This document shows, one piece after another, positions 10,615 through 32,383 of a DNA stretch of 39,158 nt. The position numbers and the translations under genes were made by a program. This DNA is from Gammaproteobacteria bacterium (GTDB lineage: Bacteria > Pseudomonadota > Gammaproteobacteria > SZUA-152): assembly GCA_021647505.1 (NCBI GenBank), contig JAKIUN010000033.1, forward strand, positions 1 through 39,158, read 5' to 3'. The notes below the pieces were generated by a model that saw only the letters and a list, made by a program, of their open reading frames with translations, was not told the DNA's origin and did not search any database. Position 1 is the first letter of the stretch, and each line of letters starts with the position of its first letter.

Positions 10615-11804
10615 AAATACCGCGCCAGCTCCAATTGTAGATAGTCGTCATCACGCATGCCGTAGAGTAGGCTGCCTTGCGGGGCATTGGCGAAGGTGCG
10701 AGCCTCGATGCTGAGTTTCCAGCGTTGGCCGATGCGGCGGCTGCCTTCGATGCTGAGCATTCGGCTCTGGTCGTTGTTGTCGATGATGAGGCCGAGCAGC
10801 AGTTCCGAGGAATCGGCGTCGTTGAGGGTGAAGCGGGCGCCGATCATGGTGTCATTGTCGAATAACGTGGGTGCGTTCCTGCCGCGTTCGTCCCAAAGGA
10901 CTTCTGTAATCAGGCCGAGGTCATAGCTGCTGTCGAAGATGCCCACCAGGGTGTATTCGAAACCACCAGTGGCGGCGGCGTAGTTGCGGTTGCCTTGGCC
11001 GCTACGGTGGATGGTCTCCAGTTTCCACAGCCAGTCACCGAGGGTGGCTTGCAGGTCGAGGCTGAACTGGTCGATGATTTCATAGTGTGGGATGAGGACG
11101 GTTTCGCCGTTTGCATTCGTGGTCGGCAGCAGGGTGGGGTCACGGCTGGTGCCGTGGAAATAGCTGAGGCCGAAGTCCCAGTCGCCGATGTAGTGCGACC
11201 AGCGTGCGGCATAGTCGATATTGTGCTGTTCACGTGAGGATTCGTATTGGGTCAGGTCAGTGTCGATGCGCGGCTGAGTACGTGGCCGGCCTTCGATACC
11301 GGCAAAGGTGCGCTCGCGAAAGCCGGGCAGCACGAATAAATCCACGGTACCCCAGTCGCGGATCAGGGCCAGCTGGATCATGGGCTGGCCAAGTTTGTCT
11401 TCGCCATCGAGATTCTCCACGGAATCGGTCTGGTTGATGATATCCACCAGGTGTTGTGATTCGGTGACGCCCCAGTAGACCTTGCCGATACCGACCCGCA
11501 ATTCCCAGTTATCGCTGGCCTTGAGCCAGTTGAATTCACGAATGTCGGCGTGTGTCCGCTCGCTGTCACCTTGATCCCAGCGGGCGAAGGGGACGATGGT
11601 GATGCTTTGGCGGCCATCATCCCACTCGGTGTAATACTCGGGTTGGGCGCTAAAGGAGAGATTGTTGCCGTGTTGGCGTGGCTCGCTTGGCCCGGTCGGA
11701 AAGGCGCGCAATTCACCACTGAGATAACCGGACCATTCGCCGGCAAGGGCGGTGCTACCCGGCCAGAGCAAGGCGGTGAGGCTGAGCGCTGCGAACCGCT
11801 TCAT
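10611..11804 (-). CDS. Outer-membrane beta-barrel protein of the lipid-transport locus
   Basis: 397 aa from ATG at 11804. A longer in-frame reading to 11945 would encode part of the intergenic repeat and is rejected. Signal peptide MKRFAALSLTALLWPGSTALAGEW. The rest alternates polar and hydrophobic/aromatic residues with many acidic turns (WDQGDSERTHADIREFNWL; GQGNRNYAAATGG), ending LQLELARYF with the terminal Phe of outer-membrane barrels. No catalytic motif is seen. It is the last gene of the tetR-MMPL-LolA-like-barrel series on the minus strand. Loci pairing MMPL transporters with LolA-like and outer-membrane proteins (including DUF1302/DUF1329 types) suggest a trans-envelope lipid or hydrophobic-compound route, but the exact family here is uncertain. 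Confidence 0.7.
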   Translation of the reverse strand: MKRFAALSLTALLWPGSTALAGEWSGYLSGELRAFPTGPSEPRQHGNNLSFSAQPEYYTEWDDGRQSITIVPFARWDQGDSERTHADIREFNWLKASDNWELRVGIGKVYWGVTESQHLVDIINQTDSVENLDGEDKLGQPMIQLALIRDWGTVDLFVLPGFRERTFAGIEGRPRTQPRIDTDLTQYESSREQHNIDYAARWSHYIGDWDFGLSYFHGTSRDPTLLPTTNANGETVLIPHYEIIDQFSLDLQATLGDWLWKLETIHRSGQGNRNYAAATGGFEYTLVGIFDSSYDLGLITEVLWDERGRNAPTLFDNDTMIGARFTLNDADSSELLLGLIIDNNDQSRMLSIEGSRRIGQRWKLSIEARTFANAPQGSLLYGMRDDDYLQLELARYF

Positions 11805-11813
11805 GAGGTTGCC

Positions 11814-11958
11814 GTAGGAGCGGGCCATGCCCGCGAAATGGGCTTTTCTTGCCACAGAGATACGGAGAACACAGAGGTTTAATGAAGTTGTATTTCTCCG
11901 TGCCCTCTGTATCTCTGTGGCAAATGGCTCCTTTATCGCGGGCATGGCCCGCTCCTAC
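11814..11958. repeat. Composite inverted-repeat element (REP pair around a second palindrome)
   Basis: Two perfect 22-bp arms in opposite orientation (11814-11835 and 11937-11958) are each themselves a REP-like unit with a GCGGGC-AT-GCCCGC core. Between them lies a second inverted pair, GCCACAGAGATAC (11851-11863) and GTATCTCTGTGGC (11909-11921), with further partial pairing (ACGGAGA with TCTCCGT). The outer unit recurs at 29897-29963 and the inner one resembles 28224-28350. Confidence 0.9.
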
Positions 11959-11979: not shown

Positions 11980-12846
11980 TCAGCGTGCCCGCTTGAGACT
12001 GTTGCGGTCGAAATCACGATCCGTCAGGCCGGTCTTGAACTGGTAGTTGCTCCAGAACAGGTCGGTGCTTTTTTTGGTTTGATGATTGACCATACTCATT
12101 TTTTCCGGGCGCCAGAATTTTCCCTGGTACTGTTTGTAGTCGCTGGAGATAAGGGTCTTCAGCAGGGATTTCTTGCGGTCGTAGAATTCTATCTTTAAGG
12201 GTTGATACATCTCCTTGTCCATCCACGTGACGAGGCGCGTGTAACCGGAGTGCTTGTAGGCCGGGTAGCGTTCGATGACAAAGGCAGGGCGGCCGTCGAG
12301 GTCTTCCTCGCGGAGATATTTGTAGGTGTATTTATCCACTTCCTGCGAGGTGATGTCTTCGTAGGCGAATTCACTGCCCATGAAGGGGCCGGATTTGTTG
12401 TTGGAGGAGATACGCTTGACCCGTTTCAGCGCCGGCAGGTACAGCCACTGGTCGTCGGGCTTGATGGCGTGGGTGAAACTGAGAAAGGCTGTGCCCTTCA
12501 CATCACGCGGGTTGTCGAAGATGCTCAGGCTTTTGTCACCGTCACCCTCTACTTCCAAGGTGCGGCTGCGGATTTTGCGGGTACTTTCCTGGCCGTGGCG
12601 GTTACGCAACACCATTTTCAGGTCGGCGGTCTGATCTCCCCAGCCGGTATCGAGCTGGTCGGCCTTGATGGCGATGGCGAGGCCTTTTTCTTCTGCGGTT
12701 TCGGCGTTGGCGGTCAGTGGTAGCAGGCTTAGGCCGAACAGGGTGATGGGAAGGATTATTTTCAACCGGGATCCTGTAAGTGATCGTGCTTGCACTGAGT
12801 GAGTGCGAGCACTTGCAGGATTTAGGTTCAACGATGGCTTGGGCAT
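11980..12846 (-). CDS. LolA-like outer-membrane lipoprotein-sorting family protein
   Basis: 288 aa. Start is fixed by an AAAGGAG site 6 nt upstream of ATG 12846. A long polar stretch (1-28) precedes the hydrophobic signal core (LKIILPITLFGLSLLPLTANA). The mature part resembles the LolA_like/PF17131 family that accompanies MMPL and RND-type lipid transporters: DLKMVLRNRHGQ, RDVKGTAFLSFTH, DDQWLYLPALKRVKRIS, GSEFAYEDIT and YTRLVTWMDKEMYQPLKIEFYD are its characteristic strands. It would carry a hydrophobic ligand across the periplasm. The odd N-terminus is explained by an inserted palindrome (12771-12821). The gene lies between the MMPL transporter and the outer-membrane barrel. Confidence 0.8.
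   Translation of the reverse strand: MPKPSLNLNPASARTHSVQARSLTGSRLKIILPITLFGLSLLPLTANAETAEEKGLAIAIKADQLDTGWGDQTADLKMVLRNRHGQESTRKIRSRTLEVEGDGDKSLSIFDNPRDVKGTAFLSFTHAIKPDDQWLYLPALKRVKRISSNNKSGPFMGSEFAYEDITSQEVDKYTYKYLREEDLDGRPAFVIERYPAYKHSGYTRLVTWMDKEMYQPLKIEFYDRKKSLLKTLISSDYKQYQGKFWRPEKMSMVNHQTKKSTDLFWSNYQFKTGLTDRDFDRNSLKRAR
12771..12821. repeat. 51-bp nested palindrome inside the LolA-like coding region
   Basis: Outer arms ATCCTGTAAGTG (12771-12782) and CACTTGCAGGAT (12810-12821) match with one mismatch. Inner arms GTGCTTGCAC (12786-12795) and GTGCGAGCAC (12803-12812) also match with one mismatch. The element is 51 nt, 17 codons, so the reading frame is kept. It falls in the region before the signal-peptide core. 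Confidence 0.85.
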
Positions 12847-12895
12847 GATTTTCTCCTTTGTTTTTCAGGGTGTGGCGGTTCTCCCCTCACCCCGG

Positions 12896-12917
12896 CCCTC
12901 TCCCCAGGGGGAGAGGG
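12896..12917. repeat. GC-rich hairpin repeat between MMPL and LolA-like genes
   Basis: CCCTCTCCCC (12896-12905) pairs with GGGGAGAGGG (12908-12917). It is preceded by CCCCTCACCCCGG, and the whole resembles a repeat common in proteobacterial intergenic regions. It lies between two genes of the presumed operon and could reduce read-through into the downstream pair or stabilise the upstream message. Confidence 0.75.
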
Positions 12918-12932
12918 AGGTGTCATTCGTGG

Positions 12933-15260
12933 TTATGTGGTAGCGGGGGCTGCTTTTTTCGTATCGTCCTTGCCTTCCAGTTTCATCAGCAGCGGCGGCA
13001 GGAACAGGAAGTCGGCGGCCAGGGCGAAGACGATGACGATGGCGGTGAGCAGACCCATGCCGGCGTTGAGCTGGAAGCTGGACAGGGACAGTATCAGGAA
13101 ACCGACCACCAGCACGATGGAAGTGATGGTCAGCGCCATGCCGACGCGGCGGAAGGCATAGCGCACGGCGTCGGGACTGCTGAGGCCGTTTTCGCGCCGG
13201 GCACGCAGGTATTTGCTGAGAAAGTGTACGGTGTCGTCCACCACGATGCCGAGGGTCATGCCGGCGACGATGGACAGACCGAGGCCGATTTCACCGACCC
13301 ACAGACCCCACAGGCCGAAGCCCATGGCGGCGGGGATCAGATTGGGGATCATGCTCACCAAGCCGATTTTCACCGAACGCAGGGCAAAAATGAGTATCAG
13401 TGAAATCAGCAACAGGGCGATGGCGGTGCCCAGCAGCATGCTGAGGATGTTGCGCTTGCCGATGTGGGCGAACATCAGCGAGGTACCGGTGCCTTCGGCA
13501 TTGGCGATGTTCGGGGCATTTTGTTCCAGCCACAGGCGGGCGCGCTCTTCCAACTCCAGCAGGTCATTGGAGGACAGGCTCTGCAAGGTGGCGGTGAAGC
13601 GGATGGCGGATTTATCGATGTTGATCTGGTTATTGAGATCCAGGCCATAAGGCAGCGACATTTCATATAACAACAAATATTGTGCCGCCATGTCACGTTC
13701 TTCGGGCAGCTTGTACCAGTCCGGGTCGTCGCCATGCATGTTTTTGTTGAGGCGCAGCATGGTGTCGCTGAGGCTGCTGACGTGGATGGTCTCAGGCTGT
13801 TGACGATACCAGTCGGCGAAGGCGGCGGTCTCTTGCAGGAATTGCGGCTTGCTGATGCCGCCGGCTTCACCGGCCTCTAACGAGTAGTCGATGATATACA
13901 GGCCACTGAGGTTTTCGGTCATGAAATCGGCATCCTGACGGAAGGGGACACTGTCATCGAAGTAGTGTACGAACACGTCGTTGAGTTCGTTGCGTGGTAT
14001 GGCGGCGACCAGGATCACGATGACGCCTGCCATGCCCCACATCAGTGGTGTGCGGCGACGTACCACGAAATTACCGAAGCGGTTCATGAGGTGGCTGTCG
14101 TCGTTGCCGATCTGTTTTACCCGCACCGGCAACAGTGACAGGGTGGCGGGCAGGAAGCCGACAGCAAAAATGAAGGAGGCGATGACGCCCATGGCCACCA
14201 TATTGCCGAGGTGCTGGAAGGGAGGCACTTCGGAAAAATTCATACTGAGAAAACCCAGCGCGGTGGTGATGCTGGCGAGAAATACCGGCTGCATATTGAT
14301 GCGTAGACTTTCGATCAGGGCGTCACGCTTTTCTTTGCCAAGGCGCATTTCATGCAGAAAAGTGACCAGTATGTGCACTGAGTTGGCGATGGCCACGGTG
14401 AGAATAATGGTCGGTGCCGAGGCCGAGGGTGGAGTGATGGGAAAGCCGAGATAACCGCCCAGGCCCATCGCCGTGAGGATGGAGAAGAGGATCACGAACA
14501 GGGTCGCCACAGTGCCGCTGACGCTGCGTGTGAGCAGCGCCAGGGTAATCAGCATGAGTAGGAAGCTGAGTGGCACCAGACTCACCATGTCGCTCTGGGA
14601 GGCCTCGGAGAAGGCATTATTCATCAACACCATGCCGGATAGGCGAATCTCTATATCTGGATAGAGAGTGTGCATTTCTTTGACCAGGTCACGCGAAAAG
14701 GCGACGATTTCCGGCACTTCGCCAAGGTCTTCGCCGGGCAGTTGCACGGTGACGTTGACGCCGGTGACGTGGGCACGCTCGGGAACTAATTTGTCGAGCA
14801 GACTGGGTTCGTGCAGGGCGATGGACTTGATGTCCTGGCGCGCTGCCTCGTCCAGTACCCGCTCTTCCTCAACCAGGTCATATACCCGCAGGTCATCTTC
14901 CTCGGCTTCAGTGTGCTGGAAGTTGGACAGGGAATCGACGCGGATGGAATAGGGGGTCTGCCAGGCTTTTTCGGTCAGGGTCTTTACCGCTTCCAGTGTC
15001 TGTTCCGCAAAGGCATCGCCATCTTTGGGCACCAGAATGAACATCACATTGTCATTCTTGGTGTAGGTGTTTTCCAGAGCCTCGAAGGCCAGCATTTGCG
15101 GGTTGTCGGCGCTGAAAAAGACACGGTAATCGGTGGTGAAACCGAGGAACCGTGTACCGCTTGCCGCTGCCATTACCAGTAGCACGGTGGCCAGGATGAC
15201 CAGCCAGGGATGGGTGACGACCCACTGGGCATAGCGGGTGGTGCGGTTTGTGGCATTCAT
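12933..15260 (-). CDS. MMPL/RND-superfamily transporter
   Basis: 775 aa inner-membrane protein with the two-fold layout of the MMPL/HpnN class: one TM helix near the N-terminus (THPWLVILATVLLVMAAASG), a large periplasmic domain, five TM helices (about 225-375), TM7 near 395, a second periplasmic domain, and five more TM helices to the end. The second TM block has GIVVDDTVHFLSKYLRARR, with Asp residues in the helix as in proton-driven RND pumps. Such proteins export lipids or hydrophobic compounds (hopanoids, mycolates). It is followed by LolA-like and barrel genes on the same strand and preceded by tetR. No hopanoid synthesis genes are visible, so the cargo is open. Confidence 0.85.
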   Translation of the reverse strand: MNATNRTTRYAQWVVTHPWLVILATVLLVMAAASGTRFLGFTTDYRVFFSADNPQMLAFEALENTYTKNDNVMFILVPKDGDAFAEQTLEAVKTLTEKAWQTPYSIRVDSLSNFQHTEAEEDDLRVYDLVEEERVLDEAARQDIKSIALHEPSLLDKLVPERAHVTGVNVTVQLPGEDLGEVPEIVAFSRDLVKEMHTLYPDIEIRLSGMVLMNNAFSEASQSDMVSLVPLSFLLMLITLALLTRSVSGTVATLFVILFSILTAMGLGGYLGFPITPPSASAPTIILTVAIANSVHILVTFLHEMRLGKEKRDALIESLRINMQPVFLASITTALGFLSMNFSEVPPFQHLGNMVAMGVIASFIFAVGFLPATLSLLPVRVKQIGNDDSHLMNRFGNFVVRRRTPLMWGMAGVIVILVAAIPRNELNDVFVHYFDDSVPFRQDADFMTENLSGLYIIDYSLEAGEAGGISKPQFLQETAAFADWYRQQPETIHVSSLSDTMLRLNKNMHGDDPDWYKLPEERDMAAQYLLLYEMSLPYGLDLNNQINIDKSAIRFTATLQSLSSNDLLELEERARLWLEQNAPNIANAEGTGTSLMFAHIGKRNILSMLLGTAIALLLISLILIFALRSVKIGLVSMIPNLIPAAMGFGLWGLWVGEIGLGLSIVAGMTLGIVVDDTVHFLSKYLRARRENGLSSPDAVRYAFRRVGMALTITSIVLVVGFLILSLSSFQLNAGMGLLTAIVIVFALAADFLFLPPLLMKLEGKDDTKKAAPATT

Positions 15261-31672: not shown

Positions 31673-32120
31673 AACTACACCTCTTGCAAGGTTGTGGCAT
31701 GCTGCACGACTTACATTGTGCAGAACAAAGTGTGTCGAATAAATAAGGCCGTAAGCGGGCACGGCGAATCGGTGTGAAACGCGCCCCATTGTATATTATA
31801 CTCATGCAAAGCATGATTACATCCCAGTGGATGACTCGGACTTTCTGTGTGTGTGCCGGGACTCGTTGCTTGTACCAAGCCATGATCAGGCGGCCTGGAA
31901 CAGAGGGCAGGGCGCTTATCCCATTAATCTTACTGAAATATGAAATATATTCCTGGTAAAAGCGGACTGACTCTTCTATAGTATACCCAGCTACAGATAC
32001 CGTGACTGGCACTTTTGGTTGTTCCCTCCGTGTTACCCTCCGAATTCCCCGTTTCACTACCTGTACGCACCACCCTAAGTTTGTTTGTTTAATGTATTTA
32101 TATATCAGGTAAAAAGTCAC
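31673..32120. other. Divergent regulatory region between fccA and the cold-shock gene
   Basis: No gene is supported in this 448-nt region. It should carry both the fccAB promoter (minus strand) and the leader of the cold-shock gene. Short reading frames present are unconserved in appearance. The segment 32000-32120 is C/T-rich and would be a long 5' leader, as is usual for cold-shock mRNAs. Confidence 0.5.
31794..31822 (-). promoter_or_regulatory. Candidate fccAB promoter with palindrome in the spacer
   Basis: On the minus strand TATAAT (31799 to 31794) is a perfect -10 hexamer about 120 nt before fccA. The -35 position (about 31816-31822) holds only a weak match. Within the spacer CATGC (31802-31806) and GCATG (31810-31814) form a 5-bp palindrome that could be an operator. 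Confidence 0.35.
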
Positions 32121-32321
32121 ATGGCTACAGGTACAGTAAAGTGGTTCAACGAAGCCAAAGGTTTCGGTTTCATTTCTCAGGATGACGGCGGCGCAGACGT
32201 ATTCGTGCATTTCAGCGCGATCCAGGCCGGCGGTTTCAAGACCCTGGCCGAAGGTCAGGCGGTCACCTATGAAGTGGAAAACGGCCCCAAAGGCCCGCAG
32301 GCGACCAGTGTTAGCGCCTAA
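32121..32321 (+). CDS. cspA: Cold-shock-domain protein (CspA family)
   Basis: 66 aa, a complete single-domain cold-shock protein that binds single-stranded RNA/DNA. RNP1 is KGFGFI and RNP2 is VFVHF. Opens [14 protein letters not shown] and ends QATSVSA, typical of the smaller proteobacterial Csps. Translation starts at 32121; a longer frame from 32085 lies in the leader. Followed by a strong terminator 18 nt after the stop. Which Csp paralogue it is cannot be told. Confidence 0.95.
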
Positions 32322-32339
32322 GCAAGACCCTATCGGATA

Positions 32340-32383
32340 ATCGATACAAAAAACCCCGCCCCGGCGGGGTTTTTTGTATCGAT
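32340..32383. terminator. Strong bidirectional terminator
   Basis: Perfect 21-bp arms (32340-32360 and 32363-32383) with a GC-rich core (CCCCGCC/GGCGGGG) flanked by A6 on one side and T6 on the other. It therefore ends transcription from both the cold-shock gene and, on the other strand, the ABC_ATPase gene. Confidence 0.95.

Follow-up and report, generated by a model that had tools for sequence, protein, structure and literature searches.

A 61-bp MITE, very probably of IS1380 type, inserted in frame near the start of a LolA-like gene

The LolA-like gene and the extent of its insert

The window, by which we mean the whole stretch of 39,158 nucleotides analysed, carries on its minus strand a 288-aa open reading frame (11980-12846) that matches the Pfam LolA_like family PF17131 (1.6e-65) and holds in frame a 51-bp nested palindrome at 12771-12821. 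An earlier note made from the letters alone had described this palindrome, and its coordinates are exact. We found that the palindrome folds more stably than shuffled versions of itself, both as single-stranded DNA (-15.2 kcal/mol, shuffles averaging -5.4; z -5.4; equalled by 0 of 200) and as coding-strand RNA (-18.6, shuffles averaging -9.2; z -4.0; equalled by 1 of 200). A search for direct and inverted repeats at default settings reported none in 12600-13000, presumably because the arms are interrupted; it was the folding that revealed the palindrome. The features of the locus are as follows.

11980-12846, minus strand: exported LolA-like protein (PF17131) of 288 aa including the insert, whose 22 codons encode residues 6-27
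12703-12765, minus strand: remainder of the ancestral signal peptide, LKIILPITLFGLSLLPLTANA, conserved in genus orthologues
12761-12765, no strand assigned: target-site duplication copy 2, TTCAA on the plus strand, perfect 5-bp repeat
12763-12765, minus strand: possible alternative start TTG within the target duplication, 6 nt after an element-supplied AGGA (12772-12775) that the predicted fold hides in the hairpin
12766-12826, minus strand (the gene's direction): 61-bp short (fold-back) form of an IS1380-type MITE, with a 17-bp terminal inverted repeat at both ends; related copies of the 61-bp form in 5 relatives
12827-12831, no strand assigned: target-site duplication copy 1, TTCAA on the plus strand (TTGAA on the coding strand), perfect 5-bp repeat
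12853-12859, minus strand: Shine-Dalgarno-like AAAGGAG ahead of the ATG at 12846-12844, with a similar site ahead of the start in genus orthologues
12933-15260, minus strand: upstream gene for an MMPL/RND-type transporter (PF03176, domain match); the LolA-like gene lies downstream of it

To locate the ends of the element we searched with the pattern of the repeat's end (CCTRGATCCTGCAAGTG). Two facing copies of the terminus were found, at 12810-12826 with one mismatch to the family terminus and at 12766-12782 with two, and the element is therefore 61 bp long (12766-12826), the 51-bp palindrome being the part of it whose arms still pair. At their outer 5 bp the arms are unlike (CCTAA and CCGGG), which is probably why the earlier note, with its count of 17 codons, stopped at 51 bp. 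The 61-bp element plus one copy of the 5-bp duplication makes 66 bp, or 22 codons, corresponding to residues 6-27 of the protein (LNLNPASARTHSVQARSLTGSR); with the flanks joined and the insert left out, the protein reads MPKPS-LKIILPITLFGLSLLPLTANA. Across the insert two of the three frames are open in the gene's orientation compared to none in the opposite one, and in the majority sequence of the seven copies found of the 61-bp form the frame used in the LolA-like gene is open as well. The family termini, the TTCAA/TTCAA duplication and the open frame bear out the suggestion that a small palindromic element had been inserted with the frame kept. An assembly artefact is unlikely given that the other matches in the same genome differ from the window copy or span only part of it, and that the site has a target duplication and sits within a 39-kb contig.

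Other structures were observed in the window. A perfect 10-bp hairpin at 12896-12917 (CCCTCTCCCC/GGGGAGAGGG) lies in the spacer that separates the LolA-like gene from the transporter gene, and is found with small changes in genome G003. Just downstream of the LolA-like gene lies a second, larger palindrome (11814-11958; arms of 63 nt, 79% complementary) that is REP-like (GTAGGAGCGGGC..ATGCCCGCG), has an inner CACAGAG-type repeat and finds 79 matches in the genome. The ATG (11945) of the neighbouring ORF falls inside this larger palindrome, so that the true start of that ORF is probably the ATG at 11804 (MKRFAALSL...). The sole match in an Rfam scan of the window was a cspA thermoregulator RNA at 31965-32378 (RF01766, 96 bits).

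Empty sites in relatives and a family of copies

The earlier note had proposed comparing orthologues for the extra codons and looking for the element elsewhere in the genome. A protein search over 57 genomes (the window's own and 56 relatives) gave matches in 37, and 30 orthologue loci were compared; without the window itself and one locus cut by a contig end (L035), 28 could be evaluated. The element is in none of them: within -150 to +60 of the position of residue 28, the best match to the 17-bp terminus has at least 5 mismatches in all 28, compared to 1 in the window. The contrary case that had been named, orthologues sharing the same N-terminus over non-palindromic DNA, was not seen among those compared, and in this comparison the insertion in the LolA-like gene is found in the window's genome only. 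An orthologue is present in five of the six genomes of the same genus, the sixth (G004) having no match in the protein search. The genus orthologues begin MQKSPRPA/FKKILP, MQKLPNSS/LKRILP (twice), MPKTTLGKILP and MSKPT/FNKILP, the last to be set against MPKPS-(22 aa)-LKIILP in the window. At the DNA level, the sequence leading up to AAAGGAGAAAATCATG is common to G003 and the window with small differences only, and the CATCG just ahead of the insertion site is common to G001, G002 and the window.

Related copies exist in the same genome and in others. We scanned 96 genomes (the window's own included) for the terminus at no more than one mismatch and found it in 17, of which 13 belong to the window's own family. 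The window's genome has nine such places, compared to none for a reversed-pattern control. Five paired copies were found in this genome, of 51, 55, 61, 140 and 165 bp, and elsewhere in it there are single ends. The 51-bp copy has a TTGCA/TTGCA duplication and the 140-bp and 165-bp copies each have a duplication matching at 4 of 5 positions, while no matching duplication was found for the 55-bp copy. An exact scan of species genomes with the 17-mer returned at least 112 stretches, and the matches listed include Nitrosomonas sp., Ghiorsea, Mariprofundaceae, Sedimenticola, Ectothiorhodospiraceae and other gammaproteobacterial MAGs, so that the family ranges over Gammaproteobacteria, Nitrosomonas and Zetaproteobacteria. 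The 163-bp form had no match in a plasmid collection, nor the window copy in a phage collection.

To characterise the family we drew 107 non-redundant paired copies from loci L001-L240, with a limit of 400 bp in the pair search. These copies were selected by their ends, which are thus not independent evidence here, while the duplications are. A perfect 5-bp duplication flanks 62 of the 107, compared to a mean of 4.1 (maximum 13) when the right flanks were re-dealt 1000 times; for duplications of at least 4 of 5 positions the count is 84, compared to a mean of 23.3 (maximum 34). No 6-bp duplication was found among the 107 copies. The perfect duplications follow the pattern T-N-N-N-A, with T first in 61 of the 62 and A last in 61, and the TTCAA of the window fits. 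The copies are 36 to 362 bp long, about half of them (53/107) measuring 161-163 bp and another 25 being short forms of 36-61 bp.

The 61-bp form itself, sought in the 96 genomes by a junction-specific pattern at no more than three mismatches, occurs at seven places in six genomes. Judged by eye, it is arranged like the 163-bp form minus its middle. The duplication is perfect at three of the seven places (the window, G021 and G019:C249) and matches at 4 of 5 positions at two (G001 and G015); a good match is lacking at the remaining two, G019:C45 and G011, the latter having in addition a left end that is out of register. By eye, the flanks of the G001 copy resemble those of the copy on contig C88 of the window's genome, so the insertion there appears to be older than the one in the LolA-like gene.

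Might in-frame insertion be a general property of the family? We rejected this idea, since an open ORF of at least 120 aa surrounds only 6 of the 107 copies, the other 101 lying outside any such ORF. Among the six, only that of the window combines a perfect duplication with a position shortly after the start and a long frame still to follow. Three others sit at the far end of their frame, with 1, 2 and 7 codons left, another stands 31 codons from the end of a 131-aa frame, and the sixth is the L167 copy described below. A copy plus its 5-bp duplication is divisible by three for lengths of 55, 61 and 163 bp and not for 38, 51, 57, 161 and 162 bp. None of the other six copies of the 61-bp form follows the opening codons of a long frame.

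Three further copies near or in reading frames may be recorded. In L167 a 163-bp copy (1203-1365; duplication 3/5) lies in a 506-aa open frame with 51 codons before it and 400 after, possibly a second in-frame case or else a spurious upstream extension. On contig C69 of the window's genome the 55-bp copy (L053, 209-263) stands, by eye, shortly ahead of an ORF beginning MAAGQRIRIRLKAFDHRL, which we take to resemble ribosomal protein S10. The G019:C45 copy of the 61-bp form (L277) lies about 29 codons ahead of the start of a frame that is presumably ftsA.

IS1380 elements with the same ends

We ran the IS1380 transposase profile NF033539 (cut-off 180 bits) on the same 96 genomes and found matches over the cut-off in seven. 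The window's own genome has none, its best match scoring 24.4 bits. A transposase in the same genome is expected of an active IS/MITE pair and is not required of a relic.

In G013, from the same family as the window's genome, an intact 452-aa transposase (297 bits to NF033539, at L113) lies inside a 1688-bp element that has CCTAAATCCTGCAAG at both ends and a TAGAA/TAGAA duplication. A Ghiorsea genome that bears the MITE (G097, the genome of L164) is rich in one IS1380 element, with 17 near-full-length and 5 partial matches over the cut-off. Three of five Ghiorsea IS1380 loci examined (L242, L251 and L269) carry CCTAAATCCTGCAA at their ends, the duplications matching at 5/5, 4/5 and 5/5 positions, while such ends with a duplication were not found at L259 and L265. 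The ends and the duplication length of the MITE thus match those of elements that carry an IS1380 transposase. Elsewhere, loci L114 and L244 have other CCC-type ends with perfect 5-bp duplications, and L110, L111, L112, L115, L116 and L243 have no convincing ends with a duplication.

The common ends and the duplication length suggest that the MITE may have been moved in trans by IS1380-type enzymes, and the Ghiorsea IS1380 element is a candidate source of the transposase. Another Ghiorsea locus, L181, has two facing termini about 1.6 kb apart; we rejected it as the autonomous element, its 261-aa ORF having no IS1380 match and only matches under the cut-off to IS701/IS4 models.

Effect on the gene, alternative explanations and known systems

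We are highly confident that the LolA-like gene received, behind its fifth codon, an IS1380-type fold-back MITE of 61 bp, and so gained 66 bp, or 22 codons, while keeping its frame open. The element, moved in trans by an IS1380-family transposase, would have entered the 5-bp site TTGAA and duplicated it (61 + 5 = 66 bp). The frame crossing the element in the gene's orientation contains no stop, so that the gene took up its 22 codons and remained open. Translation would most likely still begin at the ancestral ATG (12846). The signal peptide would thereby have a longer hydrophilic n-region, made up in part of the extra residues, a lengthening that is probably harmless. Their position ahead of the hydrophobic core, with a putative cleavage site that we place by eye after ANA, suggests that they would be removed on export, in which case the mature protein would be unchanged and the insertion close to neutral.

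The same insertion could instead have moved the start of translation to the TTG in the right-hand duplication, read from the element's own AGGA. The protein would then begin MKIILP, with a signal peptide of ordinary length that resembles those of the genus orthologues, and the palindrome would be a hairpin in the 5' untranslated region. The TTG AAA ATA follows the AGGA at 6 nt, but in the predicted transcript the AGGA is nearly fully paired (mean unpaired 0.005) and the TTG largely so (0.33). The ancestral signals are predicted to be about as open in the filled leader as in the joined-flank version (0.47 vs 0.46 for the Shine-Dalgarno, 0.62 vs 0.58 for the ATG), and both the ATG and the Shine-Dalgarno-like site ahead of it are conserved in relatives. 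On this modelling we favour the ATG with a longer n-region and regard the TTG as a rather unlikely start. The same values lend no support to an effect of the hairpin on translation from the ATG, a possibility that the earlier note had raised. That note had also called the palindrome domesticated, and it could be argued that expression or export of the LolA-like protein is now under the control of the hairpin or of the extra residues: the RNA fold close to the start is stable, and the frame is open even though the window copy is not identical to the short form's majority sequence. The ATG region is predicted to be as open with the insert as without it, however, and an insertion present in one genome only has no conservation to show; we found no evidence that the 22 residues have a function, and domestication seems improbable to us. 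It is equally a long shot that the MITE family serves occasionally as a portable, frame-preserving leader, whose 61-bp form would add a 22-residue n-region and whose end, by bringing a ribosome-binding sequence beside a start-like TTG, could let one gene yield two signal-peptide isoforms controlled by melting of the hairpin.

A short imperfect palindrome near a gene boundary, with a REP-like repeat about 850 bp away, might also be no transposon copy at all but a REP-type (RAYT-associated) palindrome or a transcription terminator. REP sequences are not known to make a target duplication and typically have a GTAG-like tetranucleotide at one foot; here duplications are found and there is no GTAG within the 61 bp. 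The family-wide 5-bp duplications, the 161-163-bp forms with the same ends and the IS1380 elements with those ends all stand against this explanation, as do the absence of a T-run after the palindrome and its location inside an ORF, and we consider it barely credible.

By its size, ends, duplication and copy number the element that lengthens the LolA-like gene is a MITE: it is short, free of transposase and multi-copy, has terminal inverted repeats and a target duplication, and relatives have the empty site. Like IS1380-family insertion sequences such as ISEcp1, the MITE has 14-17-bp ends and the 5-bp duplication seen in the G013 and Ghiorsea elements; unlike them it has no transposase, the ends being the only sequence in common. 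The left end of ISEcp1 is taken to be CCTAGATTCTACGT, a string that turns up in six papers together with the name ISEcp1, and it agrees with 10 of the first 14 bases of the MITE terminus.

As treated in the available text of PMC10969869, PMC4133298 and PMC11578231, prokaryotic MITEs (Correia elements, TIMEs, MITEPye1 and others) are likewise small, multi-copy and transposase-free, with the terminal inverted repeats of a full IS, a target-site duplication and folding into a long hairpin. Compared to those named there, the present family is set apart by its IS1380-type ends, its 5-bp TNNNA duplication and its short fold-back forms of 36-61 bp beside the 161-163-bp form. The term IS1380 is absent from the review PMC10969869 as available, the terminal 17-mer from the literature searched, and no description of an IS1380 MITE family was found in titles and abstracts (IS1380 with MITE, MITE with Nitrosomonas, in-frame palindromic insertions). 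The family is apparently undescribed. It is documented here, across distant proteobacterial groups, by ends that match IS1380 elements, by target duplication and empty sites, and by a candidate for the autonomous partner.

In-frame palindromic elements are already known as a kind. The precedent is the Rickettsia palindromic elements (RPEs), described in PMC10969869 as palindromic mobile elements lying in frame in protein-coding genes and adding a peptide, and the same text regards in-frame fusions by intragenic MITEs as not unusual. The window element resembles the RPEs, as there described, in all these respects. It differs in that RPEs are about 150 bp long with many inside genes, whereas the in-frame insertion described here is one 61-bp copy within a signal peptide. 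One copy of the MITE has been caught lengthening a protein without breaking it, which provides a natural test of how long the n-region of a Sec signal peptide can become. It is also a case, in an organism other than Rickettsia, of a selfish palindrome turned coding sequence.
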